In this document: one piece after another, positions 3,401-61,557 of the stretch | Layout of the letters: every line of letters begins with the position of its first letter | Numbering within the stretch: position 1 is the stretch's first letter | From: Ruminococcus sp. | GTDB taxonomy: Bacteria; Bacillota; Clostridia; Oscillospirales; Ruminococcaceae | Assembly: GCA_017462565.1 (NCBI GenBank) | Contig: JAFTQW010000054.1 | Span: 1 to 64,000 of the forward strand | Direction of reading: 5' to 3' | DNA length: 64,000 bases | Position numbers and translations under genes: made by a program | Notes under the pieces: generated by a model | The model's database searches: none | What the model was told of the DNA's origin: nothing | What the model saw: the letters and a program-made list of their open reading frames with translations, nothing else

Positions 3401-3608
3401 TGTTAAAGAGAAATTACACTATGGGCATTCTGCCCTAATTATTCTTATTACCTCTTCATGAGGTAATAAGAATAATTAATACTGGGTTTCCAAAGGGTGA
3501 TTCCCCACAGTGTGGGGAAATGTCACGAAGTGACAAAGGGGACGGGCGCCTGTTAGGCGGATTCACCCTTTGGCAGGGGCGTGGGGACAGCGTCCCCACT
3601 TAAGCTGA
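3401..3608 (+). repeat. Type A modular intergenic repeat, copy A1
   Basis: Lies between soj and noc. It starts with a TGTTAAAGAG...CTATGGG segment, then a perfect palindrome at 3436-3478 (19-bp arms ending in TACCTC, loop TTCAT), then GGGTTTCCAAAGGG...CCCTTTGGCAGGGG and a terminal hairpin GGGGACAGCGTCCCC. Between the CCAAAGGG and CCCTTTGG arms is an extra insert made of more hairpins (CCCCACAGTGTGGGG and GTCACGAAGTGAC, then a GGGGACGGGCGCC segment). There is no coding frame. The rest of the 3327-3775 gap is AT-rich DNA and two parS sites. Confidence 0.85.
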
Positions 3609-3724
3609 CAACATTAACAATTGCGGCAAGATAATATTATTGTTCTATTTCCTTATAATTATACCACTTTTTCTTACTGATGTAAATACATAATTTCAAA
3701 TTTTATTATTTTTTGCATAAAAAA

Positions 3725-3740
3725 TGTTTCACATGAAACA
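3725..3740. promoter_or_regulatory. parS site (one-base variant)
   Basis: TGTTTCACATGAAACA is one base away from the palindromic parS consensus TGTTTCACGTGAAACA bound by ParB. It lies 11 bases from a perfect copy, just downstream of the noc stop codon. Confidence 0.85.
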
Positions 3741-3750
3741 TTTTGAGAAT

Positions 3751-3766
3751 TGTTTCACGTGAAACA
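3751..3766. promoter_or_regulatory. parS site (perfect)
   Basis: TGTTTCACGTGAAACA is a perfect 16-bp parS palindrome, ten bases from the noc stop codon. It is paired with the variant site at 3725, so ParB could load at two adjacent sites here. Confidence 0.95.
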
Positions 3767-3775
3767 TTATGATTT

Positions 3776-4600
3776 TCATTGATTTTGTCTGTTTTGAATC
3801 GGGATTCTGACTCTGTACTCGATATACTCCTCGTTTTGGATTTTTTTAGAATCGGCTGAGATTCCGGCTGCCTGCATAGTTTCAACGGCTTTATTGATTG
3901 TATTCACGAACATTTTTACATTCTGAAAGACCTTAGACCGCTTTTTATAGCTTGCTTTTTCCTTTTGATGACCTATATATTCATCGATAAGCCGTTCTGA
4001 TTTCTCAACATTCAAGTTGTACTTAATGATTTTTTCAAGAATGCAATAGCGATCCTCAGGACTTGCAAGCCGAAGCAGTGCCCTTGCATGGCGTTCCGTA
4101 AGATTAAATTTCATAATAAGGTCACGTTCTTCAGGCGAAATGCGAAGCAATCTGAGCTTATTTGCAATCGTACTCTGAGCCTTGCCAAGCTTCATTGCAG
4201 CGTCCTCTTGGGTCATTCCGTAGTATGTAATAAGCTGTTCAATAGCGATAGCCTCTTCAAAAAAAGAGAGATCCTGCCGCTGAATATTTTCTACAAGCGC
4301 AAGAATTGCTGAATTTCGGTCGCTTATTTCATGAACGATGCATGGAACTACCGAAAAACCGCACATTTTAGCCGCACGGAGCCGTCTCTCTCCGGCGATC
4401 AATTCAAACTTATCTCCAATACGTCTCACAGAAAGCGGCTGAAGAATACCATTCTGAGCAATTGATTCAGCGAGAGCCGTTATTTCATTTTCCGGAAACT
4501 CAGTTCGGGGCTGATGCGGATTTGGTTTTATCAGCTTTACTTCGACTTCGATGACCTTGTTTACAAGCTTTTCCTTAGTGAAATTTAAAAATCCTGCCAT
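3776..4600 (-). CDS. noc: ParB-family nucleoid occlusion protein Noc
   Basis: A second ParB paralogue, placed beside rsmG as noc is in Bacillus. The start was set at MAGFLNFTKEKLVNKV (274 residues) because GTGAGG lies just upstream and because this short opening could form an amphipathic helix, as needed for Noc membrane contact. It has NPHQPRTEF, the CTP-binding GERRLRAAK, and a helix-turn-helix (GMTQEDAAMKLGKAQSTI) that differs from that of ParB at 1576. In known systems Noc binds its own palindromic sites and blocks septation over the nucleoid. I did not find a Noc-type site by eye. Assignment as Noc rather than a second ParB rests on sequence style and location. Confidence 0.82.
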   Translation of the reverse strand: MAGFLNFTKEKLVNKVIEVEVKLIKPNPHQPRTEFPENEITALAESIAQNGILQPLSVRRIGDKFELIAGERRLRAAKMCGFSVVPCIVHEISDRNSAILALVENIQRQDLSFFEEAIAIEQLITYYGMTQEDAAMKLGKAQSTIANKLRLLRISPEERDLIMKFNLTERHARALLRLASPEDRYCILEKIIKYNLNVEKSERLIDEYIGHQKEKASYKKRSKVFQNVKMFVNTINKAVETMQAAGISADSKKIQNEEYIEYRVRIPIQNRQNQ

Positions 4601-4732
4601 ATTTTTGTCCTCACATATTTTACTTGGGTTACCCCTGTAAAAATATTGTAACATTTCTGGGAAATAATTACCATACAAAAAAACCGCCAATTTTCGGCAA
4701 ATTGGCAGTTTGTTTATCAATACTTAATAATT

Positions 4733-5437
4733 TCAGAGCAATTTCTTTTTGATCTGACTGCTATTTCGAGGATATTTTGTCGGAGTCTGCGATATTTTTT
4801 CAATCTGAACAATACGTCTTTCCTCATTTTCAATTGAATAATTTGTTTCACGTGAAACATTTCCGCCGAGGAGTTTAATTGCATTTAATCCAAGAGAAAT
4901 ATCCTCATTTGGACCTTTCATTGAAATAAACATTCCTCCAACCTTTACAAAAGGGATGCATAGCTCGCTTAAAAGTGACATATTCGCAACAGCTCTTGCA
5001 CAAGAGATATCGAATTTCTCTCTATATTCGGGCTTTTTTGAGTAATCCTCTGCACGTCCGTGAATAAATTCGGCCCGAATGCCGATCTTTTCGCAAAGCA
5101 ATTGAAGGAATGTTATACGTTTGTTCAGACTATCCAAAAGAGTTAAATTAACGTCAGGACGATAAATTTTTAAGGGAATCGAAGGGAATCCGGCGCCCGT
5201 TCCAACGTCGATTATGCAGGCATTTTGCGGTATATCCACATATTTCACCATAATAATGCTGTCAATAAAATGCTTGTAAAGAATATCGGAAGGATCGGTT
5301 ATAGCGGTCAGATTGACGTTTTTATTATATTCAATAAGAAAATCGCAGTAAACTGACAGCTTATCGTAAATATTCCTATCAAGACTTAATCCATATTTTT
5401 CAAAAGCAGAGCAACATAGTTCAAAATTTGGGAACAT
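4733..5437 (-). CDS. rsmG: 16S rRNA (guanine-N7)-methyltransferase RsmG (GidB)
   Basis: Methylates a guanine in the 530 loop of 16S rRNA (G527 in E. coli numbering) with SAM. The start was set at MFPNFELCCSAFEKYG, preceded by AAGGGAG, giving 234 residues, the family's normal size. The SAM-binding motif IDVGTGAGFPSIPLKI and the downstream SCARAVANM segment are clear. It starts two bases after the mnmG stop, so the two are co-transcribed. Near the C-terminus the coding sequence contains a perfect parS site (4844-4859), read as part of NVSRETN. Confidence 0.95.
   Translation of the reverse strand: MFPNFELCCSAFEKYGLSLDRNIYDKLSVYCDFLIEYNKNVNLTAITDPSDILYKHFIDSIIMVKYVDIPQNACIIDVGTGAGFPSIPLKIYRPDVNLTLLDSLNKRITFLQLLCEKIGIRAEFIHGRAEDYSKKPEYREKFDISCARAVANMSLLSELCIPFVKVGGMFISMKGPNEDISLGLNAIKLLGGNVSRETNYSIENEERRIVQIEKISQTPTKYPRNSSQIKKKLL
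4844..4859. promoter_or_regulatory. parS site (perfect) inside rsmG
   Basis: A perfect TGTTTCACGTGAAACA embedded in the rsmG coding sequence. Bacillus also has a parS in this neighbourhood of genes, so placement inside coding DNA is not unusual. Confidence 0.95.
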
Positions 5438-5438
5438 C

Positions 5439-7316
5439 TTAAACTCCCTTCTCATGCTGTAACCAAACCGCAAGCAATGAAACGTCTGCCGGAGAGACTC
5501 CGGAAATCCTTGACGCCTGACCAATTGAAACAGGCTGTACCTTATTAAGCTTTTCAGCCGCCTCAAGTCTAAGTCCACGAATGCGGCTATAATCCGTGTT
5601 TTGTGGAAGTTTTTTCTCTTCAAGATTACGCATTGTTTCAATTTGGGCAAGCTGTTTTGAAATATAACCTTCGTATTTTATTTGTAGATCAACTTGCTCG
5701 CAAATTTCATCCGAAAGATCAGGACGTTCGTCGTCAAACTGAGCAAGAACGTTATAATTAAGCTGCGGACGTCGAATAAGATCAGCAAGTTTGCATCCCG
5801 TAGAAAGCGGAGCGGTATGATTTTCTTCGAGAAAAGCATTTAATTCAGCTGTCGGGGACATATTTTTACATGAAACACGCTTTATTTCATCAGCAGTTTT
5901 ACTGATTTTAGAGAGCAGCTTCTTATATCTTTCAGATGAAATAAGACCAATTTTATAACCAATGGGAGTCAATCTCTGGTCGGCATTATCTTGCCTGAGA
6001 ATAAGACGATATTCACTGCGTGAAGTCATCATTCTGTATGGATCGGAACATCCCTTCGTGACAAGATCGTCGATGAGCGTACCAATGTAAGAACTGGCTC
6101 GGTCAAGAATCATCGGCTCTCTTCCCTTTATTTTTAAAGCAGCGTTAATGCCTGCAACAATTCCCTGAGCCGCTGCCTCCTCGTATCCGGAGCTTCCGTT
6201 AAACTGACCTGCGCCGTAAAGTCCCTCTATTTTCTTAAACTCCAAAGTAGGAAGAAGCTGTATCGGATCGCAGCAGTCGTACTCGATCGCATAAGCCGGA
6301 CGCATTATCTCAACATCTTCAAGTCCCTCTATTGTTTTCAGAAATGCAAGCTGAACGTCTTCCGGCAGTGACGATGACATTCCCTGCAAATAGTATTCTT
6401 CTGTAGTAAGTCCCATTGGCTCAACAAAAAGCTGATGTCTTGGTTTATCAGAAAAACGCACAATTTTGTCCTCTATGGACGGACAATATCTTGGTCCAAC
6501 TCCCTCGATTTTACCCGAGTATAAAGGCGATCTGTCAAGATTATTGAGTATTACTTCATGAGTATTACTATTTGTATAAGTCACATAACAGCTCACTTTA
6601 TTTTCAAGCCCGTCAACAGGAGTTTCAAATGAAAACGGAATAATGTGCTCGTCTCCATTCTGTTTCTCCATTATGTCAAAATTAATACTTCTTTTGTTTA
6701 CACGACATGGAGTACCCGTCTTAAAACGACGAAGTTCAACGCCATTTTCAATAAGACTCGACGATAATTTTTTACTTGGCAGAGCTGAATCAGGACCGCT
6801 TTCATAAGAAACTTCGCCAATGTGAATTTTTCCTTTTAAATATGTTCCGGTTGCAATTATTACAGCTTTGACGGAATATTCCGCCCCCAGCGACGTTCTT
6901 ACTCCGACAATTTTACCTTCTTCAACAATAATTTCAGCAATTTCCGCCTGTTTAACGAAGAGATTTTTTTGCTTTTCGCAAACATTTTTCATATAATTGT
7001 GATACATAACTCTGTCAGCCTGAACCCTAAGACTATGAACTGCCGGTCCTTTTCCTCTATTTAGCATTCGGCTCTGAATAAAGCATTTGTCTGCACCTTT
7101 GCCCATTTCACCGCCAAGAGCGTCGATTTCTCTTACAAGATGACCTTTCGCAGTACCTCCGATTGACGGATTACAGGGCATATTCGCAATTTGATCGAGT
7201 GAAATCGTAAACATGACCGTTTTGCAGCCAAGTCTTGCAGCAGCGAGAGAAGCCTCTACTCCGGCATGACCGGCACCGACAACAGCTACATCAAATTCTC
7301 CCATATTGTAATTCAT
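5439..7316 (-). CDS. mnmG: tRNA uridine-5-carboxymethylaminomethyl modification enzyme MnmG (GidA)
   Basis: With MnmE, installs the carboxymethylaminomethyl group at wobble U34 of certain tRNAs using FAD and a folate carbon. The 625-residue protein opens with the FAD dinucleotide fold GAGHAGVEA (14-22). It has the conserved [21 protein letters not shown] segment and ends in the C-terminal helical domain that contacts MnmE and tRNA. A GAGGG ribosome binding site precedes the ATG at 7316. mnmE lies just upstream across a parS site, giving an mnmE-mnmG-rsmG-noc order. Confidence 0.97.
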
Positions 7317-8712: not shown

Positions 8713-8732
8713 TAAAACACTCCTTTGTTTAT

Positions 8733-8907
8733 GGGGGACGCTGTCCCCCAAATCCCCCTGCTTAAGGGGAGTACATCCCCTTAAGAATCCCAATAATAAT
8801 ATTATAAATAATACCCCTTTTAAGGGGCATTATTTATAATATTTAATACTGGGTTTCCAAAGGGTGAATTCACCCTTTGGCAGGGGGCGTGGGGGACAGC
8901 GTCCCCC
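8733..8907. repeat. Type A repeat, symmetric double copy A2
   Basis: Sits between jag and mnmE. Two half-units point away from a central palindrome (about 8793-8846, arms ending in ACCCCTT / AAGGGG). The left half has GGGGGACGCTGTCCCCC and a CTTAAGGGG/CCCCTTAAG hairpin; the right half has CCAAAGGGTGAATTCACCCTTTGG and GGGGGACAGCGTCCCCC. Confidence 0.85.
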
Positions 8908-8912
8908 ATAGA

Positions 8913-12420: not shown

Positions 12421-12630
12421 CCAACAACTTAAGCGGGGACTCTGTCCCCGTACCCCTGCCAAAGGGATATTATCCCTTTGGAAACCCGATATTAATTATT
12501 TCAAATACTAATGGTATTTGAAATAATTATGGCTGCCGCCAAAAATTGAATACTGTTTGGCAAAAGTTCAAGGTACAAAATCTCTTAAATTGTCGGCTTT
12601 ACTAAGAGGGACAGAGTCCCCACTTAAACC
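12421..12630 (-). repeat. Type A repeat, copy A3 (inverted)
   Basis: Reverse-oriented unit in the rpmH-dnaA gap. It has GGGGACTCTGTCCCC, CCAAAGGGATATTATCCCTTTGG, a 37-bp palindrome at 12493-12529 (arms TAATTATTTCAAATAC), then the A-specific flank that reads GGCTGCCGCC...AAAGTTCAAGGTACAAAATC and a final GGGACAGAGTCCC hairpin. Copy A4 downstream of dnaA is the same unit in the other orientation. Confidence 0.85.
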
Positions 12631-12673: not shown

Positions 12674-12930
12674 TGTTGAAACTTTTGAAAACTGCGTTTA
12701 AAACTTTCCTGAGCGGCGGTTTTCAACATAGATTTTTCTTTTTCGCAGCGTTATTTAAGCAGGTTTTGAACATGGACAATGTTAAATCCACAAAGTTTTC
12801 AACAATATGTCAATTCAGGTGTGGAAAGCGAGCTTATTTTCTCACTCTTTATCAATAAAATCGCTTGCAATTTAAAAATTCATATGCTATAATAATATTA
12901 TATTATTATAGGATAGTGTTGTTTTCAACA
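12674..12930. other. oriC: oriC, left cluster of DnaA-box-like sites
   Basis: Six 9-mers resembling TTATCCACA lie in 257 bases upstream of dnaA: TTTTCAACA at 12720, 12796 and 12922, TGTTGAAAC at 12674, AAATCCACA at 12784, TGTGGAAAG at 12820. Most carry CAACA rather than CCACA. They surround the dnaA promoter, which fits autorepression plus the upstream half of a bipartite origin as in Bacillus. The function is inferred from position and motif density. Confidence 0.7.
12865..12893 (+). promoter_or_regulatory. dnaA promoter
   Basis: TTGCAA, 17 bases, then TATAAT with an upstream TGC that makes an extended -10. It lies about 115 bases before the dnaA start, between DnaA-box-like sites at 12820 and 12922. 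Confidence 0.8.
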
Positions 12931-14416: not shown

Positions 14417-14583
14417 ATTTAAGAGATTTTGTACCTTGAACCTCTGCAAAATAGTATTCATTCATTGGCGACAGCCATAATTATTTCAAATACCAATGGT
14501 ATTTGAAATAATTAATACTGGGTTTCCAAAGGGTTGAATAACCCTTTGGCAGGGGTACGGGGACAGAGTCCTCGCTTAAATTG
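14417..14583 (+). repeat. Type A repeat, copy A4
   Basis: Forward unit after dnaA. It begins with TTAAGAGATTTTGTACCTTG, then GGCGACAGCCA, a 37-bp palindrome at 14478-14514 with 17-bp arms (TAATTATTTCAAATACC), CCAAAGGGTTGAATAACCCTTTGG and GGGGACAGAGTCCTC. The palindrome is identical in sequence to that of copy A15 at 60924. Confidence 0.87.
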
Positions 14584-16297: not shown

Positions 16298-16612
16298 CGC
16301 TGCACCCAATCACGGAGTTACTACCCATAAAAGATAAAAAAAACACATCGCTCGTGATTTACTCATAATAATGGGATTCCAAAGGGATAATATCCCTTTG
16401 GTCAGGTCAAGGGCAGAAAGCCCTTGTGGGGTATCGGGGCAACGCCCCGTAAAAAGACAGCGTGGTGAGGAACAGCAGAGCCTAAAATCTAAAAAAATCA
16501 TCAGGAACTAACAATAGAGCATCATTCCACGCTGTCCCGAACCAGCGAGAGAGCGAAGCGTTTCGAGCGGACGGTTTATATAAATCATCCCCTGTGAGCG
16601 CAGAGTGAACAC
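16289..16612 (+). repeat. Type B modular intergenic repeat, copy B1
   Basis: Begins inside the dnaN stop region with GCAGCGTGACGCTGC, then ACCCAATCACGGAGTTAC, CGCTCGTGATTTAC, a short CCAAAGGG...CCCTTTGG unit, GGGGCAACGCCCC, and long-range inverted arms GACAGCGTGG...CCACGCTGTC. It ends TGTGAGCGCAGAGTGAACAC, 34 bases before the next gene. No frame in it is coding. Confidence 0.82.
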
Positions 16613-16646
16613 ATAAAATAAAACTTAAAACTAAAGGAGAAAAATT

Positions 16647-17114
16647 ATGATTTTTTACAGAAACTATCCATATGCGCCGAAAGCAACGTTATTCTCGGTT
16701 CTGATGAGCTGTCTTGCTCTTTGTTCTGCACTGGTATCGTTAGTAATGTTTGCGAAGATGAAAGAAAGCGTTATTATGATAATTCCAGCGCTTCTTCTCA
16801 TTGCGCTGGCGCTGTTTTTCTTTTTCTATTGTTCGCATACAGCCGCTGACAAAATGGCTGAAAAGGAAACAGAGAAGAATATCAAGAAATCGGCAAATTA
16901 TGCTCTTATGTACTGCCAGCAGCATCCGGATATGTATGAAACCCTTCTTGAAGAGAATCCGAAATTTGCCGAGGCAATGAAAGACAATGCGTCGTATGCT
17001 CTTCAGTACTGTAAGGCTCACCCGGAAATGTACGATAAGCTTGCGGCTGAAAACTTTAAATTCGGAGCAAAATATATTGTGAACGACGAAGGAAAAGTAG
17101 TTAAAAATAAATAA
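16647..17114 (+). CDS. Small membrane protein with two tandem C-terminal repeats, unknown
   Basis: Not recognised. The 155-residue protein has two membrane segments (about 14-35 and 42-61) and a soluble C-terminal half. That half holds two copies of one unit: [24 protein letters not shown] (split here as [14 protein letters not shown] and [10 protein letters not shown]) at 84-107 and [17 protein letters not shown]...ENFKF at 116-139. The pattern is YALxYCxxHPxMYxxLxxENxKF. An AAAGGAG site precedes the ATG. It interrupts the usual dnaN-yaaA adjacency and is preceded by repeat B1, so it is probably an insertion into the replication cluster. Confidence 0.75.
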
Positions 17115-18473: not shown

Positions 18474-18731
18474 ATGTATCTTCACATAGGAAACAATTAT
18501 TCCGTTGACACAAGGGACATTGTTGCAATTTTTGACATAGAAAATACGACTGTCGGAAAATCGACAAAGCTTCTGCTTGAGCGTGCCGAAAAGGAACACA
18601 AATGCGTCTATACCACCTATGAAATGCCGAAAAGCTTCATTATAACCATGAAAAACGGCAGAGAAAGAGTCTATATTTCTCAGCTCTCCGCATCAACCCT
18701 GAGAAAAAGGCTCGAAATTGGCGGTTTCTAA
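18474..18731 (+). CDS. remB: Extracellular matrix regulator RemB (DUF370 family)
   Basis: An 85-residue protein of the DUF370 family (YaaB/RemB), found between recF and gyrB in many Firmicutes. Its opening MYLHIGNNYSVDTRDIVAIFD and the LSASTLRKR near the end are family hallmarks. The ATG at 18474 was chosen over an upstream TTG because GGAGGAG is optimally spaced for it. In Bacillus, RemB is reported to affect matrix gene expression, and its paralogue RemA binds DNA. Function here is by family only. Confidence 0.9.
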   Translation: MYLHIGNNYSVDTRDIVAIFDIENTTVGKSTKLLLERAEKEHKCVYTTYEMPKSFIITMKNGRERVYISQLSASTLRKRLEIGGF

Positions 18732-18734
18732 ACA

Positions 18735-18978
18735 TAATAAAGGGTTTCCAAAGGGTGGATTCACCCTTTGGCAGAGTGCAGGGACAGCGTCCTTGCTGGG
18801 GTATCGGGGCAACGCCCCGTAAAAAGACAGCGTGGAGGAAAAATAGCAGACTCAAAACCTGAAATATAGTTAAAATTACAGTAGCCCTAAGTCCACGCTG
18901 TCCCGAATTAGCGAGAGAGCGAAGCATTTCGAGCGGACGGTTTGCGTAAATCATCCCCTGTGAGCGCAGAGCGAACAC
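18735..18978 (+). repeat. Type A/B composite repeat, copy B2
   Basis: Starts four bases after the remB stop with CCAAAGGGTGGATTCACCCTTTGG, then GGGACAGCGTCC, GGGGCAACGCCCC, the inverted arms GACAGCGTGG...CCACGCTGTC around 18830-18903, and the tail GCGAGAGAGCGAAGC...TGTGAGCGCAGAGCGAACAC. It lies 64 bases upstream of the accessory kinase gene. Confidence 0.82.
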
Positions 18979-19726: not shown

Positions 19727-21650
<1,924 letters not shown>

Positions 21651-21652
<2 letters not shown>

Positions 21653-21775
21653 GGGGACTCTGTCCCCTTAAACCCCTGCCAAAGGGGAGTACATCCCCTT
21701 TGGAAACCCGATATTAGGTCAATCTTAATATCCCATAAAGGGGCATTAAGATTGACTATGAGATATCCATAGAAT
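21651..21775 (-). repeat. Type A repeat, copy A5
   Basis: Begins at the gyrB stop codon with AAGGGGACTCTGTCCCCTT, then CCAAAGGGGAGTACATCCCCTTTGG and a palindrome at 21718-21756 whose arms (GTCAATCTTAAT...) are unrelated in sequence to those of A1 or A4 but still complementary. Confidence 0.83.
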
Positions 21776-21831: not shown

Positions 21832-22228
21832 CTAATAATGGGATTCCAAAGGCAGCGTGACGCTGCTCCCAACGGTCGCCCGTACCCTCTGTCAGCAAGC
21901 TGACATCTCCCTACACTGTAGGGAGTCACCCAATCACGGAGTTACTTCCGAAAAAAGATTGAAGAACACATCGCTCGTGATTTATTTATAATAATGGGTT
22001 TCCAAAGGGTGGATTCACCCTTTGGCAGGGGTTCGGGGACAGCGTCCCCGAGGAGGGCAACGCCCCGTAAAAAGACAGCGTGGAGAGAAAAAGCAGAGCC
22101 TAAAATCTAAAAATCATCAGGAACGAACAACAGAGCATCATTCCACGCTGTCCCGAACCAGCGAGAGAGCGAAGCGTATCGAGCGGACGGTTTATATAAA
22201 TCATCCCCTGTGAGCGCAGAGCGAACAC
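21832..22228 (+). repeat. Type B repeat, long copy B3
   Basis: The longest B unit. It has GCAGCGTGACGCTGC, a CCCTACACTGTAGGG hairpin, GTCAGCAAGCTGAC, ATCACGGAGTTAC, CGCTCGTGATTTAT, CCAAAGGGTGGATTCACCCTTTGG, GGGGACAGCGTCCCC, the inverted arms GACAGCGTGG...CCACGCTGTC and the TGTGAGCGCAGAGCGAACAC tail. It ends 38 bases before the accessory gene at 22267. Confidence 0.83.
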
Positions 22229-26792: not shown

Positions 26793-26978
26793 TTAAGCGG
26801 GGACGCTGTCCCCGTACCCCTGCCAAAGGATGAATCCACCCTTTGGAAACCCATTATTATCAATTATTAAAAATACCTCTTTTTAAGGGGTATTTTTAAT
26901 AATTTTATTACCGGGATTCTTAAGGGGATGTACTCCCCTTAAGCAGGGGGATGGGGGGACAGAGTCCCCCGCTTAAGC
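26793..26978. repeat. Type A repeat, symmetric double copy A6
   Basis: Two half-units around a central palindrome (about 26857-26903; arms with TATTAAAAATACCTC/AAGGGGTATTTTTAATA). The left half has GGGGACGCTGTCCCC and a CCAAAGGATG...CACCCTTTGG hairpin, the right half CTTAAGGGGATGTACTCCCCTTAAG and GGGGGACAGAGTCCCCC. The overall plan matches A2. Confidence 0.82.
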
Positions 26979-29115: not shown

Positions 29116-29403
29116 AAACCGTCCGATCGCAGACGCTTCGCTGTGCTCCCTGTTTTATGGCGGACAGCGTGAAATGACTTTTATGATAATTTTAATAAGA
29201 TCGTAACTTTGAATTCATTTTGGATTGCTTCACGTTGTCCTTTTCAGGGCTCTGCCCTGAAACCCGCAAGGGCTGTCTGCCCTTGACCCGACCAAAGGGT
29301 GAATACACCCTTTGGAAACCCATTATTATGGTAAATCATGAGCGATGTGTTTTTTTATCTTTTATGGGTAGTAACTCCGTGATCGGGTGCAGCGTCACGC
29401 TGC
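29116..29403 (-). repeat. Type B repeat, copy B4 (reverse)
   Basis: Reverse unit: GGACAGCGTGAAATG arm, CACGTTGTCC arm, CAGGGCTCTGCCCTG, CCAAAGGGTGAATACACCCTTTGG, AAATCATGAGCGATGTG, GTAACTCCGTGATCGGGT and finally GCAGCGTCACGCTGC, which ends three bases before the gpr stop codon. Confidence 0.82.
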
Positions 29404-32227: not shown

Positions 32228-33745
32228 TTAGTTATAAGCCGGAACAGCTTCCTGTTTGATAAGATCAATAGTTTTTTCCTTTTTCTTTTTGCTCTTGCCG
32301 ATTTTCTTGAATATGATTCCGAGAATCAACTCGAATGCGCCGGCAGCAGAAGCGAGGATTCCGAACATGAGCAGAACATTCTGGATAAGATAGAATATAA
32401 CGTTTCCTGTTATAGAGTAAGCGATAGCCGAGCCTGCTAAAATCCCGAGACCTGAAACAAACAGAATGATTCCGGAGATGAAAAGAATATTTCCGTAGAA
32501 TCCCATAATATGTCTGCCCTTTTTATCAACGATAATAGCTATCCAGATGAAAAGAACGATGATAAGAGCAAGGAAAACTCCGAGTGTGATGTAAGAAAGG
32601 ATATAGCTTACGTTTTTGAGATCAAATCCTGCCTTTTTATTCCACTCCTTAACTGAAAGAGCGTCGTCGATATTTTCTTCCTCAAGACGGCTTTGAATCA
32701 GCTTCAGATCGTCTTTAGCGAGCGTATATCCGAAAACCTCGTCGGCAACATCATTGTTTGCCTTGAAGAAATCGGTTTTAATCTCGCTTGCGCCGATAGA
32801 AGGGTCTTTTCCTTTTCCGTTGAAGATATACTCAGCGTAATTTTCAGCGTTCTCTCCGATGAAGGAAAGCATATTGGATTTTACAAGAAAATCCTTGAAG
32901 TCGGCTTCCGTTGCATTTCCGTGAGTGATACTTCTGAATCCGATAGTTTTATAGATGTTGTCCGAAATCTCGTCGTCCTCGAATTCTGCGCTGAGGAGAG
33001 TGTTTGCGCTGAGATTTTCAATACGGTTTTTGATTACTTTTCCGGAAGCTCCGAATTTAAAGCAGAGAGCAAAGCTTAAAATAATAAGGAAAACAACTGC
33101 GAAAACCGAAACTGCCGAAGCTCCTATAATGCGTCCTGCGCCTACTTTAGAGGATTTCTGAACCGGAACAGACTCTGACGGGATAAAAGGCGGAGGAGTC
33201 TGCGGCTGAACCGGAATTCCGTTATCGAAAGCAGGCTGAGTATTGAAAACGGGATGCAGTCCGGGAATATTATTCTGCTGCTGATCGTTATTCCGGCTGA
33301 AAGACTGATCATGCTCGGAAAGTCCGCTTGGAATGGTCATAGTATCGTATTTGTCGCCGTTTTTTATCAGTTCCGGCTGAGATATGGTTTCGGGATTTTT
33401 TTGTTCAGGAGAGGTGTTCAGGTTTTCTTCCGGTGCAAAAGCTTTGCCGCTCTCAGCAAAAGTGCTGTCGGGATTTGCCTCGACGGGCGGAGGAGTTTCA
33501 CTGAGTTCTTCGTCATCAGAAATTTCGGCTGTTGAAGCTTCCTGTTCATCATCCTGTATGTATTGATCGTTTATATTGCTGTTTTCGTTTTCTGTTTCGG
33601 GGATACAGACGTTTTTTTCGCTTTCTTCATCAGGGAAAGCAGGCTTTTCCATGAAATTATTATCGTCGCCGTTCACCCTTGTTCCGCATTCCGGACAGAA
33701 CACAGAGCCGTTATCGAGGGGTTTTCCGCAGTTACTGCAAAACAT
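32228..33745 (-). CDS. Zinc-ribbon membrane protein, unknown function
   Basis: The 505-residue protein starts with a zinc ribbon, MFCSNCGKPL...VFCPECGTRV (two CxxC pairs, residues 3-21). A long acidic, Pro/Gln/Ser-rich disordered segment (about 25-205) follows. Then come a membrane segment (about 215-240), an extracellular or soluble domain (about 245-375) and three further membrane segments near the C-terminus. This plan is common in Clostridia and has no established role. Its expression unit is single, with its own terminator. A second zinc-ribbon protein is encoded at 45972. Confidence 0.78.
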   Translation of the reverse strand: MFCSNCGKPLDNGSVFCPECGTRVNGDDNNFMEKPAFPDEESEKNVCIPETENENSNINDQYIQDDEQEASTAEISDDEELSETPPPVEANPDSTFAESGKAFAPEENLNTSPEQKNPETISQPELIKNGDKYDTMTIPSGLSEHDQSFSRNNDQQQNNIPGLHPVFNTQPAFDNGIPVQPQTPPPFIPSESVPVQKSSKVGAGRIIGASAVSVFAVVFLIILSFALCFKFGASGKVIKNRIENLSANTLLSAEFEDDEISDNIYKTIGFRSITHGNATEADFKDFLVKSNMLSFIGENAENYAEYIFNGKGKDPSIGASEIKTDFFKANNDVADEVFGYTLAKDDLKLIQSRLEEENIDDALSVKEWNKKAGFDLKNVSYILSYITLGVFLALIIVLFIWIAIIVDKKGRHIMGFYGNILFISGIILFVSGLGILAGSAIAYSITGNVIFYLIQNVLLMFGILASAAGAFELILGIIFKKIGKSKKKKEKTIDLIKQEAVPAYN

Positions 33746-33881
33746 AATTTATACCTCCTGAGATTTAGAATTTTAAATATTCCTGTTTAATAATTATATA
33801 ACATAAAATAAATTCTGTCAATAAATTTATTGAAAAGAAAAATGACAAAATACGGCGAAAAAAATTTATTTTATATTTTTC

Positions 33882-34014
33882 TTGATTTTTCTGATATTTT
33901 ATGTTATTATATAAGTTAAGAAATTGTGCCATAAGGACGTATATGAAAAAAAGCTTCATTTTCAGACATCCATGGCAAATATATTATCGTGCATTTTATA
34001 TCCGTTTCTATTGA
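33882..34014 (+). CDS. Possible 23-residue peptide with promoter
   Basis: TTGATT, 17 bases, TATTAT (33882-33910) precede AAGGACGT and an ATG at 33943. The frame MKKSFIFRHPWQIYYRAFYIRFY ends at 34014; the piece contains many aromatic and basic residues. It may be a leader peptide or chance. The rest of the 33746-34601 gap is AT-rich DNA followed by repeats A7 and A8. Confidence 0.3.
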
Positions 34015-34028
34015 AAATTCCACATCAG

Positions 34029-34300
34029 CCTAAGAGATTTTGTGCCTTGAACTTTTGCCAAATGTATTCAATCCTTGGTGACAGCCATAATTATTTCAAA
34101 TATTATTAGTATTTGAAATAATTAATACCGGGTTTCCAAAGGGCAGCGTGACGCTGCTCCCAACGGTCGCCCGTACCCTCTGTCAGCAAGCTGACATCTC
34201 CCTACACTGTAGGGAGTCACCCAATCACGGAGTTATTACCCATAGAAGGCAGAAAAACACATCGCTCATGATTTACTATAATACTGGGTATCAAAGGAAT
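34029..34300 (+). repeat. Type A/B composite repeat, copy A7
   Basis: Has the TTTTGTGCCTTGAACTTTTG flank, GGTGACAGCCA, a 37-bp palindrome at 34088-34124, then GCAGCGTGACGCTGC, GTCAGCAAGCTGAC, CCCTACACTGTAGGG, ATCACGGAGTTAT and CGCTCATGATTTAC: an A unit fused to a B unit. Confidence 0.83.
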
Positions 34301-34320
34301 TTAAGGTAATCAATGTCAAC

Positions 34321-34519
34321 AACTTAAGAGATGCTGTGCTTTGAACTTTTGCCAAATGTATTCGATCATTGGCGACAGCCATAATTATTTTAAATACCAT
34401 TGGTATTTAAAATAATTAATACCGGGTTTCCAAAGGGTTGAATAACCCTTTGGCAGGGGTACGGGGACAGAGTCCCCGCTAAGTTGTTGGCATTGTTAAG
34501 GGGACAGCGTCCCCTTAAT
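34321..34519 (+). repeat. Type A repeat, copy A8
   Basis: Forward unit with palindrome 34382-34418 whose arms read TAATTATTTTAAATACC and GGTATTTAAAATAATTA. Compared with A4 (TAATTATTTCAAATACC) the C-to-T change in one arm is matched by G-to-A in the other. Then CCAAAGGGTTGAATAACCCTTTGG, GGGGACAGAGTCCCC and a second GGGGACAGCGTCCCC follow. Confidence 0.87.
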
Positions 34520-34601
34520 AAAGGCGGAATTGACAATAGAGGGGAGCATATATCCGGCAGGTTTTGCTTTTATTTCATAATGTGCGAGTAAGGAGATCAT
34601 T

Positions 34602-43249: not shown

Positions 43250-43500
43250 AAGGGGGACTCTGCTCCCAACGGTCGCCCGTACCCTCTGTCAGCAAGCTGA
43301 CATCTCCCTACACTGTAGGGAGTCACCCCTTACCCCCTGCCAAAGGGACGTACCCGCCTAACAGGCGCCCGTCCCCTCTGTCGGCAAGCCGACATCTCCC
43401 CACACTGTGGGGAGTCACCCTTTGGAAACCCGGTATTGATTCACTCATATCCCTATTTAAGGGATATGAGTGAATCAGGGCTGGCGCCCATAGGGGCAGT
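43250..43500 (-). repeat. Type A repeat with inserted modules, copy A9
   Basis: Reverse unit containing GTCAGCAAGCTGAC, CCCTACACTGTAGGG, GTCGGCAAGCCGAC and CCCCACACTGTGGGG, then GGGTGA...CCCTTTGG arms and a palindrome at 43438-43476 (arms GATTCACTCATATCCC / GGGATATGAGTGAATC, loop TATTTAA). Two versions of the same inserted hairpin pair are present in series. Confidence 0.83.
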
Positions 43501-49279: not shown

Positions 49280-49421
49280 TTGTTAAAGAGGCATTCACTC
49301 TATGGGCGCAGCCCTGATTTATTCAAATTTCCTGAGTGGAATTTGAATAAATCAATACCGGGTTTCCAAAGGGTGGATTCACCCTTTGGCAGGGGGGTAA
49401 AGGGGGACAGCGTCCCCCTTA
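49280..49421 (+). repeat. Type A repeat, copy A10
   Basis: TGTTAAAGAGGCATTCACTC, CTATGGGCGCAGCCC, palindrome 49315-49354 (arms TGATTTATTCAAATT...CC with a one-base bulge), CCAAAGGGTGGATTCACCCTTTGG and GGGGGACAGCGTCCCCC. Confidence 0.85.
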
Positions 49422-53310: not shown

Positions 53311-53450
53311 TGTTAAAGAGTAATTTGCTCTATGGCTTTCATCCTGATCAATTCAAGTCCCCAGTGTGGGGAGTTGAATTGATCAATTAATGGGTTTCCA
53401 AAGGGGTGATTACCCCTTTGGCAGAGGGTGCAGGGGGACAGAGTCCCCTT
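53311..53450 (+). repeat. Type A repeat inside the dnaK operon, copy A11
   Basis: TGTTAAAGAGTAATTTGCTC, a palindrome at 53345-53385 (arms TGATCAATTCAAGTCCCC with a single mismatch), CCAAAGGGGTGATTACCCCTTTGG and GGGGGACAGAGTCCCC. It occupies most of the dnaK-dnaJ gap. Confidence 0.85.
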
Positions 53451-53510
53451 GCATAAACACAAGAAAAATAAATGCAGTTTCAGTGATATTCACAGGAACG
53501 GAGTATACTT

Positions 53511-54662: not shown

Positions 54663-54691
54663 GCAGAATATATTTACTTTCCATGTTTATA

Positions 54692-54810
54692 AAGGGGACG
54701 CTGTCCCCTTGAACCCCTGCCAAAGGGGAGTACATCCCCTTTGGAAACCCAGTATTAATAAGCCCTGATACCCATAAAGGGTATCAGGGCTTATTAGGGC
54801 AGAATGCTCA
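54692..54810 (-). repeat. Type A repeat, copy A12
   Basis: Reverse unit after dnaJ: AAGGGGACGCTGTCCCCTT, CCAAAGGGGAGTACATCCCCTTTGG and a perfect palindrome at 54756-54796 (arms TAATAAGCCCTGATACCC, loop ATAAA). Confidence 0.85.
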
Positions 54811-57789: not shown

Positions 57790-57957
57790 AACGGTGCATT
57801 TCGTCTGGGCAGTCTGCCCTAATCATTTCTGATACCATTTATGGGTATCAGAAATGATTAATAACGGGTTTCCAAAGGGTGACTCCCCACAGTGTGGGGA
57901 GATGTCGGCTTGCCGACAGAGGGGACGGGCGCCTGTTAGGCGGGTACTCCCCTTTAT
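57790..57957 (+). repeat. Type A repeat with inserted modules, copy A14
   Basis: GGTGCATTTCGTCTGGG, palindrome 57820-57860 (arms TAATCATTTCTGATACC, loop ATTTATG), GGGTTTCCAAAGGGTGA, then CTCCCCACAGTGTGGGGAG, GTCGGCTTGCCGAC and GGGGACGGGCGCC. The insert is the same as in A1 and A9. The closing CCCTTTGG arm is missing. Confidence 0.82.
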
Positions 57958-58018
57958 AATTAACATAAAAAGTAAATAACGTTGCCCTGTGAAAAAAATT
58001 TCAGGCGGTGTCTTAAAG

Positions 58019-58321
58019 CGTGTTCGCTCTGCGCTCACAAGAACGGCAGAAGTGAAACTGGTAGTTTTTGGACAGCGTGAAATATGTTCTGCTATGAATT
58101 TTAGCAGGAGGAAAATTTTAATTTCATTTATTTTCCCTTACGCTGTCTTTGCTGGGCTCTGCCCCGTTACCCCGTCAGGGACGCTGTCCCTGCACCCTGC
58201 CAAAGGGTTATCAACCCTTTGAAAACCCATTATTATAGTAAACCACGAGCGAAGTGTTCTTATATCTTTTATCGGAAATAACTTCGTGATCGGGTGCAGC
58301 GTCACGCTGCCGTCACGCTGC
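58019..58321 (-). repeat. Type B repeat, copy B6 (reverse)
   Basis: GTGTTCGCTCTGCGCTCACA, GGACAGCGTGAAAT and TTACGCTGTC arms, GGGACGCTGTCCC, CCAAAGGGTTATCAACCCTTTG, CACGAGCGAAGTGTTC, GTGATCGGGT and two GTCACGCTGC copies. It fills the gap before the GH95 gene. Confidence 0.82.
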
Positions 58322-58403
58322 TTGTGTTTTTGCCTAAAACACGAGTGAAAAACTTTAATGATTTATGTTTTTTTCCTAAAAAATGCGGAAATTGACTGGA
58401 AAT

Positions 58404-58432
58404 TTGCAAATGAAGCGGTTATGTGCTATAAT
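58404..58432 (+). promoter_or_regulatory. GH95 gene promoter
   Basis: TTGCAA, 17 bases, TATAAT with extended TGC, just beyond repeat B6; the same -35/-10 wording as the dnaA promoter. Confidence 0.75.
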
Positions 58433-58481
58433 ATTAGTATTAGAATTTATAAATAAACCTTTTATCAGGAGATCTACATAT

Positions 58482-60800
58482 ATGTCATCAGAAACAATAT
58501 TAAAGTATAACAGTCCGGCGGAAAATTTTGATTGGGCGCTGCCTGTCGGAAACGGCAGGATCGGCGGAATGATTTTCGGCGTACCGGATAATGAGATAAT
58601 AAAGCTTAACGAGGATTCAATCTGGTCGGGCGGACCTCGTCACAGAGTCAATCCCGATGCGAAAGAGGGACTTGAAGAAGTCCGCTCGCTTCTTAAAGAG
58701 GGAAAAATTCCCGAAGCTGAAAAGGTTGCTTTTGAAAAGCTTCAGGGAGTTACGCCGAATATGCGTCATTATATGCCGCTGGGTGATCTTAACATTCGCA
58801 TGAAGCTCGACGGAAAGGCTAAGGATTACTACCGTGAGCTTGATATCGAGGATGCCGTTGCTGATGTGGGATTCACAGTTAACGGACTGAACATAACACG
58901 TTCGGTATTCGTATCGGCTCCGGACAATGTCATGGTGATAAGGGTAACTGCCGATTCTCCGGCTTCTTTAAGCCTTGAATGCTCGATAGACGGAAGAGAC
59001 GACTATTACGACGATAACCGTCCCTGCGGTAAAAACATGATAATGTACAACGGCGGAACGGGAAGCAGAAACGGTATATTTTTTGCGGCAGTTGTCGGAG
59101 CGAAGGCGTCCGGGGGAAAGATTCGCACTCTCGGAGGAAAAATTTCTGTTGAAAATGCCGACGAGGTTATGATAGTTCTTTCGGTAAGAACGAGTTTTTA
59201 CGGAGAAAACTATGAAGAGTCCGCACAGGTAGACGCCGAAATGGCTCTTCAGTGCGAATGGGATGAGCTTTATTACCGTCATGTGTGCGATTATCAGGAG
59301 CTTTTCAACCGTGTTGAGCTTGAACTCAACGATAACAGCGGAGCTGATGTGGAAAAGCTTAATACCGACGAGCGTATTGCACGTCTTAAAGGAGACGAAC
59401 TCGACAGCAAGGACTGCGAACGTCTTATCCACGATAACAAGCTTATCGAGCTTTACTTCAATTTCGGACGTTATCTTATGATATCGGCAAGCCGTGCCGG
59501 AACTCAGCCGATGAATCTTCAGGGTATCTGGAATCAGGATATGTGGCCGGCATGGGGCAGCAAATACACCGTAAATATCAACACGGAAATGAACTACTGG
59601 CCTGCCGAAAGCTGCAATCTTTCCGAATGTCATCTTCCGCTTTTCGATCTGCTGGAGCGTGTTTGCAAAAACGGACGTATCACAGCAAAGGAGATGTACG
59701 GCGTTGAAAAAGGCTTTGTTTGTCACCATAATACCGATATATGGGGAGATACGGCTCCTCAGGATCTCTGGATGCCCGCAACGATATGGCCTGCGGGCGG
59801 AGCATGGCTTGCTCTTCATATTTTCGAGCACTATGAATATACTCTCGATAAGGAATTTCTTGAGGAAAAATATCACATACTTAAAGAAGCGGCAGAATTT
59901 TTCGTCCGTTATCTAATTGACGACGGCAGCGGACATCTTGTAACGTGTCCGTCCGTATCGCCCGAAAATACCTATATGACCGATAAAGGAGTCAAGGGAA
60001 GTCTTTGTATTGCTCCGTCAATGGATTCGCAGATAATCACGGTTCTTTTCAGCGACGTCATAAAGGCTTCGGAGATACTCGGAAAGGACAAAACCCTTGC
60101 CAAAAAGCTCAGGAGCATGATAAAAAAGCTCCCGCAGCCGGAGATAGGCAAGTACGGGCAGATAAAGGAATGGGCTGTCGATTACGACGAGGTCGAGATC
60201 GGTCACAGACACGTTTCACAGCTTTTTGCGCTTCATCCGGCAGATCTCATTACTCCTCACAAAACGCCGAAGCTTGCTGATGCGGCAAGAGCCACTCTTG
60301 TAAGACGGCTTATCCACGGCGGAGGACATACCGGCTGGAGCTGCGCATGGATAACGAATATGTGGGCAAGACTTTATGACGGAAGAATGGTTTATGAAAA
60401 CCTGAAAAAGCTTATAACTTATTCGACAAATCCAAATATGCTCGATTCGCATCCTCCGTTTCAGATAGACGGAAATTTCGGCGGAACAGCGGCTATTGCG
60501 GAAGCTCTTATGCAGAGCTGCGGCGGCGAGATCAATCTTCTTCCGGCTCTTCCGGACGAATGGAGCAGCGGTCATATAAAGGGACTGAGAGCAAAGGGCG
60601 GTTTCGGAGTTGATATAGAGTGGCAGGACGGCAAGCTGAAAACAGCGGAAATAACGTCCGATCACGGCGGAGAGTGCCGTCTGAGAACGAACTGTGTTGT
60701 AAGTATAATATGCCACGGTGAAAACGTAGGCTCGAGAATAGAGGACGGAGTCATCGTATTCAATACTAATAAGGGCAGTATTTATACGGTAAAAGCATAA
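58482..60800 (+). CDS. Glycoside hydrolase family 95 (alpha-L-fucosidase type)
   Basis: Cleaves terminal alpha-linked fucose (or L-galactose) from glycans by inversion. The 772-residue protein starts at MSSETILKYNSPAENFDW after AGGAG and has no signal peptide, so it acts on imported oligosaccharides. It opens with the family's WALPVGNGRIGGMIFG and NEDSIWSGGP. Active-site residues known from GH95 are present: Asn pair in TVNINTEMNYWPAE, catalytic Glu in CPSVSPENTY, Asp in PPFQIDGNFGGTA. It likely works with an importer energised by MsmX; that link is inferred. Confidence 0.93.
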   Translation: MSSETILKYNSPAENFDWALPVGNGRIGGMIFGVPDNEIIKLNEDSIWSGGPRHRVNPDAKEGLEEVRSLLKEGKIPEAEKVAFEKLQGVTPNMRHYMPLGDLNIRMKLDGKAKDYYRELDIEDAVADVGFTVNGLNITRSVFVSAPDNVMVIRVTADSPASLSLECSIDGRDDYYDDNRPCGKNMIMYNGGTGSRNGIFFAAVVGAKASGGKIRTLGGKISVENADEVMIVLSVRTSFYGENYEESAQVDAEMALQCEWDELYYRHVCDYQELFNRVELELNDNSGADVEKLNTDERIARLKGDELDSKDCERLIHDNKLIELYFNFGRYLMISASRAGTQPMNLQGIWNQDMWPAWGSKYTVNINTEMNYWPAESCNLSECHLPLFDLLERVCKNGRITAKEMYGVEKGFVCHHNTDIWGDTAPQDLWMPATIWPAGGAWLALHIFEHYEYTLDKEFLEEKYHILKEAAEFFVRYLIDDGSGHLVTCPSVSPENTYMTDKGVKGSLCIAPSMDSQIITVLFSDVIKASEILGKDKTLAKKLRSMIKKLPQPEIGKYGQIKEWAVDYDEVEIGHRHVSQLFALHPADLITPHKTPKLADAARATLVRRLIHGGGHTGWSCAWITNMWARLYDGRMVYENLKKLITYSTNPNMLDSHPPFQIDGNFGGTAAIAEALMQSCGGEINLLPALPDEWSSGHIKGLRAKGGFGVDIEWQDGKLKTAEITSDHGGECRLRTNCVVSIICHGENVGSRIEDGVIVFNTNKGSIYTVKA

Positions 60801-61040
60801 TAAAGGGATTCCAAAGGGACTGTACGTCCCTTTGGCAGGGTGCAGGGACAGCAATGTCAACAACTTAAGAGATTTTGCACCTTGAACTTTTGTTAAAAAG
60901 TATTCAATCTTTGGCGATAGCCATAATTATTTCAAATACCAATGGTATTTGAAATAATTAATACTGGGTTTCCAAAGGGTTGAATAACCCTTTGGCAGGG
61001 GTACGGGGACAGCGTCCCCGCTTAAATTGTTGGCATTGAT
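60801..61040 (+). repeat. Type A repeat, copy A15 plus partial unit
   Basis: Starts at the GH95 stop codon with a short CCAAAGGGACTGTACGTCCCTTTGG unit, then a full unit with GAGATTTTGCACCTTGAAC, a palindrome at 60924-60960 identical to that of A4, CCAAAGGGTTGAATAACCCTTTGG and GGGGACAGCGTCCCC. Confidence 0.87.
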
Positions 61041-61049
61041 CAGGGCAGA

Positions 61050-61200
61050 GCCCCGAAAGGACAGCGTGAGGGAAAATAAACGAAATTAAAATTTTCCCAC
61101 TGCTAAAAATTACAGTAGAACATATTTCACGCTGTCCGTAAAGTCAGGGAGCAGAGCGTAGCGCATGCGAACGCACGGTTTATTAAAACTATCATCAGTG
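61050..61200 (+). repeat. Type B repeat fragment, copy B7
   Basis: GGACAGCGTGAGGG and TTCACGCTGTCC arms, then GGAGCAGAGCGTAGCGCATGC; a partial unit placed head to head with B8. Confidence 0.7.
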
Positions 61201-61245
61201 ATTTCTTAAGTGTACGTATTATTTTGCTCATGGCAAATTTATGGC

Positions 61246-61557
61246 GTGTTCGCTCTGCGCTCACAAGAACGGCAGAAATGAAATCGGTAATTTTTGGGAC
61301 AGCGTGAAATAATTTCTGCTTTCATTTTTTAGTAACCTCAAGTTTCTGTTCTATTTATCCCCTCACGCTGTCCTTTTCGGGGCTCTGCCCCGATACCCCG
61401 GCAGGGACGCTGTCCCTGCACCCTGCCAAAGGGGAGTATATCCCCTTTGGAAACCCATTATTATAGTAAACTCATAATTATAGTAACCCATGAGCGAAGT
61501 GTTCCTATATCTTTTATCGGAAATAACTTCGTGATCGGGTGCAGCGTCACGCTGCTG
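61246..61557 (-). repeat. Type B repeat, copy B8 (reverse)
   Basis: GTGTTCGCTCTGCGCTCACA, GACAGCGTGAAAT, CTCACGCTGTCC, CGGGGCTCTGCCCCG, GGGACGCTGTCCC, CCAAAGGGGAGTATATCCCCTTTGG, CATGAGCGAAGTGTTC, GTGATCGGGT and GCAGCGTCACGCTGC. It ends one base before the ribosome binding site of the GH26 gene. Confidence 0.83.

Follow-up and report, generated by a model that had tools for sequence, protein, structure and literature searches.

Hairpin elements of the window and genome

The genome of a Ruminococcus-like bacterium (G000) carries ~150 short elements of mobile type that consist of DNA hairpins. The repeated units form the bodies of these elements, a large non-autonomous, transposon-like family in which one subtype, B, shows IS4-type ends together with target duplications of 10 bp. 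In the window, the 64,000-nucleotide stretch that was analysed, a sequence-only reading had described many hairpin-repeat units with palindromes that diverge yet stay paired, and the arms that it quoted are present as given. A covariance model (R1, E≤1e-8) gave 19 matches in the window, four of which form two pairs, each pair representing both halves of one double-sided unit (8731–8909 and 26798–26970, neither with an assigned strand). Across the genome, at least 149 matches were found with 150 of 1476 candidates scored; the R1 search gave 181 matches, and alignment A2 was built from 150 of them. Another covariance-model search scored ~60 candidates per genome, and its counts are lower bounds.

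Whole elements span ~185–260 bp, and the full unit has the order H0-H1-H2-H3. H1 is an AT-rich hairpin of 15–20 bp, H2 is CCAAAGGG...CCCTTTGG, H3 is GGGGACAGMGTCCCC, and constant linkers surround H2. Parts beyond those described from the sequence include H0, a small hairpin before H1, as well as a left domain, terminal inverted repeats, and the double-sided units, which read H3'-H2'-H1-H2-H3. The motif GGGGACAGNGTCCCC with ≤2 mismatches had 33 matches compared to 0.10 expected (palindromic sites counted on both strands), and CCAAAGGG had 39 compared to 1.33 expected. A candidate helix would pair the left domain (YTTGYYRAAAG) with CTTTGGCAG, but one side is constant and covariation is therefore uninformative. 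The family had gone unrecognized in the sequence-only reading, which missed its transposon-like character and the IS4-type ends and 10-bp duplications of one subtype; Rfam gave no matches at gathering score within the window, and we found nothing relevant on the family in the open-licence literature, beyond which we make no claim that it is unpublished.

Units located by the covariance model take several forms. Type B-like cores flank dnaA, one (H0-H1-H2-H3) in the gap before the gene (12434–12543, – strand) and one after it (14464–14574, +). Type A cores lie at 49301–49420 (+), at 54691–54810 (–), and at 3422–3599 (+), the last with a nested module within the H2 loop. Other units are partial: H1 and the 5' half of H2 are followed by a nested module at 57806–57917 (+), a type C module interrupts H2 after the H1 at 34074–34191 (+), and H2-H3 halves without H1 occur in type C contexts at 18721–18797 (+), 21969–22052 (+), 58176–58276 (–), and 61401–61490 (–).

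Ends, target duplications, and transposase searches

The window contains two complete type B elements. One, of 187 bp (60852–61038, +), has terminal repeats at 60852–60869 and 61021–61038 around an H0-H1-H2-H3 core at 60910–61020. The other, of 185 bp (34311–34495, +), is flanked by the 10-mers TTAAGGTAAT and TTAAGGGGAC, which agree at 7/10 positions. Both are absent at the orthologous location in a close relative (G047, ~92% identical), as subtype B is at some orthologous sites generally, and subtype B copies also sit inside H3 of older copies. Type B ends (CAATGCCAACAACTTAAG, with AATG at 2–5 and TTA at 14–16) fit the IS4-subgroup signature -AATR--------WTW---- in Table 1 of PMC2266710, a subgroup with target duplications of 10–13 bp. 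In a scan of 19 type B elements with no preset duplication length, the best signal was at offset 0 and length 10 (z 8.4), and the duplications agreed at ≥8/10 positions in 6 of the 19. The best signal from 18 type A elements was weak (z 3.4 among 143 combinations).

In line with the earlier observation that the window lacks a transposase, none was found among the 18 of its translations (17 genes) scanned. Elsewhere in G000, IS4 transposase (PF01609) matched two loci, neither of which passed a YREK and ORF check or had type B ends, but a copy could be missed because the assembly breaks at repeats; G047 had no PF01609 loci. Elsewhere in the genus, YREK transposases were found in 2 of 11 G051 copies examined, at L222 of G018, and at L149 of G006, and none of these copies had exact type B ends.

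Covariation of hairpin arms

In 818 kb of the genome, we identified 121 H2 anchors, 87 of which had an H1 hairpin just upstream. H1 mismatches numbered zero in 64 of these 87, one in 21, and two in 2, but H1 was detected through pairing by a finder that prefers well-paired hairpins and lets badly decayed ones escape, which inflates this perfection. Length and H3 filters were passed by 63 of the 87 units, and leaving out 3 rows of double-sided units and 2 units with nested inserts gave an alignment (A1) of 58 cores. Covariation proved strongly positive, with two-sided change in 24 of 37 pairs, a level reached in 0 of 500 shuffles, and a score of 0.360 compared to 0.089 in shuffles and ≤0.08 when the pairing was slid. 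A matched C-to-T and G-to-A change already noted in the sequence-only reading distinguishes TAATTATTTTAAATACC at 34381–34418 from TAATTATTTCAAATACC in other copies. Short-loop hairpins stay almost perfectly paired even as H1 varies freely in sequence, as do the inner or outer pairs in H2 and in H3.

The far-apart terminal repeats are kept much less well than the short-loop hairpins of the same elements. In eight type B elements with duplications agreeing at ≥7/10 positions, terminal repeats were mismatched at 19/144 positions and H1 at 0/138. Two looser sets with four elements in common gave mismatches at 122/540 and 92/468 end positions and at 6/537 and 4/453 H1 positions, although some of these ends may be false because up to 6 mismatches were tolerated in finding them.

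Inversions and the tempo of change

Loops and whole interiors occur in both orientations. Among H1 loops, TTTAT was found 25 times and its inverse, ATAAA, 6 times; among H2 loops, TTGAATAA was found 28 times and TTATTCAA, its inverse, twice (in orthologs of each other); the loop TGGATTCA was found 13 times and its inverse, TGAATCCA, once. No inverted form accompanied the 11 copies of loop TTTAC. At 4 of 12 chosen loci, including the double-sided unit at 8731, the unit interior is oppositely oriented in G000 and G047. Insertion, nesting, and local inversion by this family rewrite the intergenic DNA around oriC.

Between copies, two-sided changes affected a fraction of 0.054–0.318 of H1 positions and one-sided changes 0.006–0.031, at left-domain divergences of 0.09–0.38. 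H1 pairs change at roughly 0.5–0.9 of the left-domain rate, and two-sided changes are ~10 times commoner than one-sided ones. The closest divergence bin (17 pairs) contained no two-sided H1 changes.

Locus-by-locus comparisons covered 398 kb of G047, and 42 of 92 gaps were placed. Counts in orthologs were mixed, and one-sided changes are not rare. Ratios of one-sided to two-sided changes were 31:19 in element hairpins, 20:13 in other intergenic hairpins, and 47:1 in coding sequence; setting aside 4 rows from opposite-orientation loci and moving 2 element-like H1 rows by hand gave 19:18 and 17:4 for the first two classes. Between orthologs, an H1 usually shows either no change or changes at 3–6 pairs at once. 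Many are unchanged, and two retain their G·T mismatch in the ortholog (L112:353 and L119:8384), which indicates that any correction between arms is not instant. In the type A core at 43317–43491 (–; nested module in H2), the H1 at 43431 differs from its G047 ortholog at six pairs, all changed on both sides, next to a left flank identical at 60 of 68 bases. Units at the same place can also differ in kind: a type A core (53331–53451, +) corresponds to a double-sided unit in G047, and another (21650–21772, –) has an H2 inner block unlike that of its ortholog.

Models for matched change

We favor, with roughly even confidence, a model in which the hairpins are maintained by arm-to-arm copying (template switching) within non-autonomous transposable elements that need a hairpin but can use any sequence for it. 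The elements would be moved, or would once have been moved, by an IS4-family transposase supplied in trans. An element exposed as single-stranded DNA during replication or repair could fold into a hairpin, and one arm might then be recopied from the opposite arm by intra- or inter-strand template switching. Any fresh single-arm change would then be erased or transferred to the partner arm, and copying could flip the loop or the entire interior. What the element would require is hairpins plus the linkers that stay constant on either side of H2, and the sequence of H1 itself would be free. The sequence-only reading had left selection for structure and copying side by side. Both survive, with the addition that symmetry is far tighter in short-loop hairpins than in terminal repeats, and the loop inversions, interior inversions, and two-sided tempo favor copying over selection. 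Counting against this model are the uninverted TTTAC loops, the lack of two-sided changes in the closest bin, the mixed ortholog counts, the many unchanged orthologous H1s with two retained G·T mismatches, the detection of H1s through their pairing, and the failure of the searches in G000 and G047 to find a transposase with matching ends.

Compensatory evolution is a possible but less probable account, in which function depends on the hairpins in RNA form, or in one strand as single-stranded DNA, and selected second mutations follow single-arm ones. It would fit the strong covariation, the constant linkers, the unrelated H1 hairpins that relatives can have at the same place, and the RNA folding of all four window units folded (z –6.2 to –9.9). 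Leftover mismatches in 91 distinct H1s also favored G·T over A·C (25:7, p 0.002; 15:4 in an initial count), as they did among well-paired, distinct H1 stems in G000 (21:8) and G047 (22:5). This lean, initially taken for decisive evidence of RNA selection, was weakened by a control: among substitutions at unpaired positions of the left domain, counted on that strand, 457 were C/T and 182 were A/G, and the lean may reflect mutational strand bias; H2 stems in G047, selected in the same way, lean oppositely (3:6). Moreover, units show no orientation preference relative to genes, loop inversions would be unexpected, and evolution at 0.5–0.9 of the left-domain rate is fast for paths that pass through harmful intermediates, with the caveat that constraint may act on the left domain too.

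Exchange of whole hairpin blocks among dispersed copies, through recombination in the constant linkers or through ectopic gene conversion, would change both arms because they travel together. The small recurring set of H2 inner blocks, which switch between orthologs, suggests such exchange, as do the simultaneous changes in orthologous H1s and an ortholog H1 arm (L118:17226) that also occurs elsewhere. We nevertheless consider it unlikely, as it creates no new arms and inverts no loops, the 87 H1s comprise 48 distinct arms, 38 of which occur once, and neither H1 version at 43431 recurs at another locus within the allowed mismatches, their nearest counterparts being two mismatches away in the parts of both genomes read base by base.

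A role in host gene expression, with the hairpins retained as mobile terminators or as regulatory structures of another kind, is improbable: H2 and H3 are G+C-rich and none of the 87 units lies inside a gene (by a crude gene caller), but units are not enriched in convergent-gene gaps (11/82 units compared to 38/248 gaps ≥150 bp), have no sense preference (++ 21, –– 31), and carry ATACYGGG rather than a T run after H1, a position and sequence that do not fit intrinsic terminators. A REP/BIME family mobilized by a Y1 (RAYT) transposase, a parallel drawn earlier that would suit dispersed extragenic hairpins, some in inverted pairs, is very improbable given the terminal inverted repeats and 10-bp duplications of B elements and zero PF01797 matches in G000 (completeness 99.99), compared to matches in 5 of 14 control genomes.

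Relation to known systems and significance

REP/BIME sequences with RAYT transposases are also extragenic hairpins in many copies, some as inverted pairs; the present elements differ in their terminal inverted repeats, in their target duplications, and in the lack of a Y1 transposase in the genome. ERIC and NEMIS are examples of bacterial MITEs with hairpin RNA, likewise short intergenic elements that can fold in transcripts. We know of no covariation of divergent arms to this extent in ERIC or NEMIS.

A close parallel is with IS4-family MITEs and the IS4 and IS231 subgroups (PMC2266710): type B ends match the signature of the IS4 subgroup, and the duplications its 10–13 bp range. Our elements differ in that no cognate transposase was found in the host and in having a body of covarying hairpins strung together, a feature outside the definition of that family. 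PMC8794818 proposes template switching as a way of maintaining hairpins, shown there in rRNA histories; it names compensatory change with an inverted loop as the strongest support for the mechanism, and finds the combination extremely rare in rRNA, with only 6 cases. Two-sided changes, several at once, and loop inversions are shared with those hairpins, whereas the hairpins here belong to dispersed mobile elements whose terminal repeats serve as an internal control.

The H2 motif was multicopy in 15/15 further genomes chosen for having a match (2 to 173 copies each), from Alphaproteobacteria, Lentisphaerae, Chlamydiae, and Clostridia, and the reversed pattern was found in none of these 15. A phage origin was rejected, as the exact H2 pattern occurred in 0 viral contigs. 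More tentatively than the copying model itself, we suggest that a shape-mobile hairpin code, consisting of constant linkers and any perfect hairpin, extends across several phyla, and that active copying from arm to arm may make its arms evolve together, fast enough for paired positions to drift near the unpaired rate.

These elements touch the question of how long stems acquire matched changes without persisting mismatched intermediates, which concerns the evolution of both RNA and repeats. A family with ~150 copies in a genome, orthologs in a ~92% identical relative, and terminal repeats that act as an internal control for the hairpins makes the question testable by counting. Covariation, even when strong, need not prove RNA selection, and this family may show how cells keep inverted repeats matched.

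The repeat family and its genomic setting

The family of modular intergenic repeats described by the sequence-only reading proved to be real, with 33 matches to its first signature motif in the window against 0.10 expected (palindromic sites counted on both strands) and 39 matches to the second against 1.33 expected. The window is an oriC-type region of the 2.63 Mb host assembly (G000), as indicated by a gene content that includes dnaA, gyrB, dnaN, parA/parB-like genes, mnmE, mnmG, dnaK, dnaJ, a jag-like gene, the large carbamoyl-phosphate synthase gene, a gyrA-type gene, and a gene for a RecF/SMC-type protein; searches of the window for tRNAs and Rfam families found none. Genome-wide, GGGGACAGMGTCCCC occurred in 92 copies and the reversed sequence in none. 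A covariance model of the repeat unit gave at least 149 matches in G000 (150 candidates scored) and, with G000 counted, matched at least 39 of 60 genomes in the genus.

Two palindromes, TGTTTCAC(A/G)TGAAACA, lie at 3722-3768 beside the parA/parB-like genes and presumably resemble parS sites. An AT-rich near-perfect palindrome directly ahead of dnaA (12882-12915), with one change in the close relative G047, is possibly part of the origin. The stretch at 58482-60800, upstream of nested units at 60801, encodes a glycoside hydrolase family 95 protein.

Anatomy of the unit

Across 818 kb of G000 there were 121 anchors for the H2 hairpin, and an H1 hairpin lay upstream of 87 of them. The unit runs from a left domain through a small hairpin, H0 (for example GGGCATTCTGCCC), to H1 (TAAT-variable-ATACCC-loop-mirror), the linker ATACYGGGTTT, H2 (CCAAAGGG-variable-CCCTTTGG), the linker CAGGGG, and H3. 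Terminal inverted repeats outside the unit define two subtypes, type A (near CAACAGCATTTACTTTTT) and type B (CAATGCCAACAACTTAAG). None of the 87 H1-bearing units fell within genes as called by our own crude gene caller, and the gene context of the 82 units scored (-- 31, ++ 21, -+ 19, +- 11) was near that of larger gaps taken as background. At 8731-8909 and 26798-26970, at locus L128 of G000, and at L201 and L203 of G047, the units are double-sided around H1; mirrored units in the relative G018 have H2 as their centre.

The H2 loop holds a nested second module (TCCCCACAGTGTGGGGAAATGTC...GGGGACGGGCG...) at 3490-3573, 43340-43425, and 57872-57960; at 43431 this module is missing from the ortholog in G047. 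Type C repeats (CAGCGTGACGCTGCACCC ... GGACAGCGTG; 16298-16703, 18721-18900, 29150-29400, and 61100-61500) have the H2-H3 half in common with the units and a different left half.

Distribution beyond the genus

The GGGTTTCCAAAGGG...CCCTTTGGCAGGG half also occurs outside Ruminococcus, as seen in the loci inspected, 20 from Clostridia and 12 from Acidomonas, Methylobacterium, Falsiroseomonas, Roseomonas, Pararhodobacter, Asaia, Devosia, Lentisphaerae, and Chlamydiae, usually with a G+C-rich hairpin next to it in the position of H3. A shorter H2 pattern was present in 2 to 173 copies per genome in all 15 genomes counted, which were picked for having a match, and the reversed pattern in none; the inner pairs of H2 vary by genome. 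No viral contig holds the pattern. Common descent, transfer, or convergence may account for it; contamination of MAG records is possible, though some of the records are titled as isolates of Acetobacteraceae and Methylobacterium. The genome with 173 motifs is a Clostridiales MAG (G087), where many of those listed have an identical inner block, CGATCGGAAAG, and the locus printed (L013) is a string of hairpins with G-rich linkers between them.

Mobility of subtype B

Mobility of subtype B is well supported. First, a direct-repeat scan of the 19 type B elements with both ends found (offsets 0-12, lengths 4-14) gave its best signal at offset 0 and length 10, with an identity of 0.57 (z 8.4) compared to 0.25 for flanks of different elements. 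Agreement over these ten bases was complete at three loci (L126, L139, L146) and 9/10 at L121, and fell below 7/10 in 11 of the 19. Second, the B element at 60852-61038, a ~550 bp segment at 33677-34601, and L120:10474 correspond to empty sites in G047, in a comparison at ~92% identity that covered the fetched part of that genome and placed 42 of 92 unit-bearing gaps. Third, H3 of older copies holds B copies (L126, L121). Finally, the B ends and duplication length match the IS4 subgroup as given in Table 1 of PMC2266710. For type A, no clear target duplication was found. Contigs C13, C14, C26, and C50 of G000 start at or inside the same type B element, indicating that the assembly breaks at near-identical copies.

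A search with PF01609 found no transposase with B ends in G000 (two loci, neither with these ends) or G047 (no matches). Within a 12-genome set, four genomes had matches (G051, 11; G018, 2; G061, 2; G017, 1). The YREK motif is present in two G051 copies and in one G018 protein of 446 aa, whose element ends in CCACTATCCACAACTTAA, with ACAACTTAA common to the B end. In G051, the 11 copies (L221-L236) are of an IS, and the two examined copies that have YREK carry long terminal repeats ending GGGTAATGTCATTAAGCTAA.

Both arms of the hairpins change together

The proposal that the palindromes diverge between copies and stay paired was strongly upheld in an alignment of 58 unit cores, where both sides change at 24 of 37 pairs. 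In this alignment, 99.0% of cells pair, the covariation score is 0.360 versus 0.089 in shuffles, and two-sided cells number 255 versus 51. Five covariation measures were reached by 0 of 500 shuffles, counts that are not probabilities because the copies are related. Two results carry the weight: a shift of the 3' arm by one to three columns lowers pairing to 34-58%, and up to four Watson-Crick pair types occur at a single position.

What keeps the arms symmetric

We give about even chances to arm symmetry being produced by copying, in which one hairpin arm is recopied from the other by template switching. First, copying is favored because symmetry is local, being kept in the short-loop H1 and much less in the far-apart terminal repeats. 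In the eight B elements with duplications of at least 7/10, terminal repeats had 19/144 mismatches and H1 had 0/138; for all 19, the counts were 59/342 and 3/331. Looser element sets gave 22.6% and 19.7% for ends versus 1.1% and 0.9% for H1; these sets allowed up to 6 mismatches to the end consensus, so that false ends may be among them, and the two lists have four elements in common. Detection of H1 relied on pairing, which inflates its perfection.

Second, arm-to-arm correction would predict that paired positions change at about the rate of free DNA. Over 1292 copy pairs, which are not independent, two-sided H1 changes track divergence of the left domain, itself perhaps constrained, at about 0.5-0.9 of its rate and are zero in the closest bin (17 pairs); one-sided changes hold at 0.004-0.031.

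Third, loops are found inverted on kept arms. The H1 loop reads TTTAT in 25 copies and ATAAA in 6 (as at L109:5878 and L111:2952, whose arms are identical), and the H2 loop TTGAATAA in 28 and TTATTCAA in 2, orthologs of each other, or TGGATTCA in 13 and TGAATCCA in 1. No inverted form of TTTAC (11 copies) was found among the loops counted. According to PMC8794818, loop inversion with compensatory change, extremely rare in rRNA, is the strongest support for template switching. Fourth, some interiors face opposite ways in the two genomes, G000 and G047, while their outer ends stay in place; this holds at 8713-8912, L114:7329-7776, L118:1556, and less clearly 3327, four of 12 printed alignments that were chosen rather than random. 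Fifth, at 43431 six H1 pairs differ between G000 and G047, all two-sided, beside a left flank identical at 60 of 68 bases; each genome's arm occurs there alone within 1 mismatch, the G000 arm having two other places at 2 mismatches.

Comparison of orthologs is mixed and in part counts against copying. Several orthologous H1s are identical in G000 and G047, and two retain the same G.T mismatch. One-sided to two-sided ratios for ortholog hairpins were 31:19 in elements, 20:13 in other intergenic DNA, and 47:1 in coding DNA, with four element rows contributed by opposite-orientation loci (L114:7375, L114:7596, L118:1601, L118:1665) and element-like H1s among the other intergenic rows (L123:9463, L129:3944). 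After correction by hand the ratios became 19:18 in elements and 17:4 in other intergenic hairpins, and the two-sided excess comes from a few loci with 3-6 changes each; the mixed counts imply that intermediates exist at this distance. Selection for structure by compensatory change is the next account, and we regard it as unlikely. Residual H1 mismatches lean to G.T over A.C (25:7, p 0.002; 21:8 and 22:5 in another count), which suggests strand-specific folding, but this lean could largely be attributed to a strand mutation bias, as unpaired C/T versus A/G changes on the same strand number 457:182; H2 in G047 leans the opposite way (3:6).

Exchange of whole hairpin blocks between copies, which we consider improbable, could likewise yield a few loci with 3-6 two-sided changes each. 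Copying, compensatory selection, and exchange can operate jointly.

These transposon-like elements, IS4-ended in one subtype and carrying short hairpins with concerted change of both arms, are real and unusual, and their interest lies in what holds the hairpin arms symmetric.
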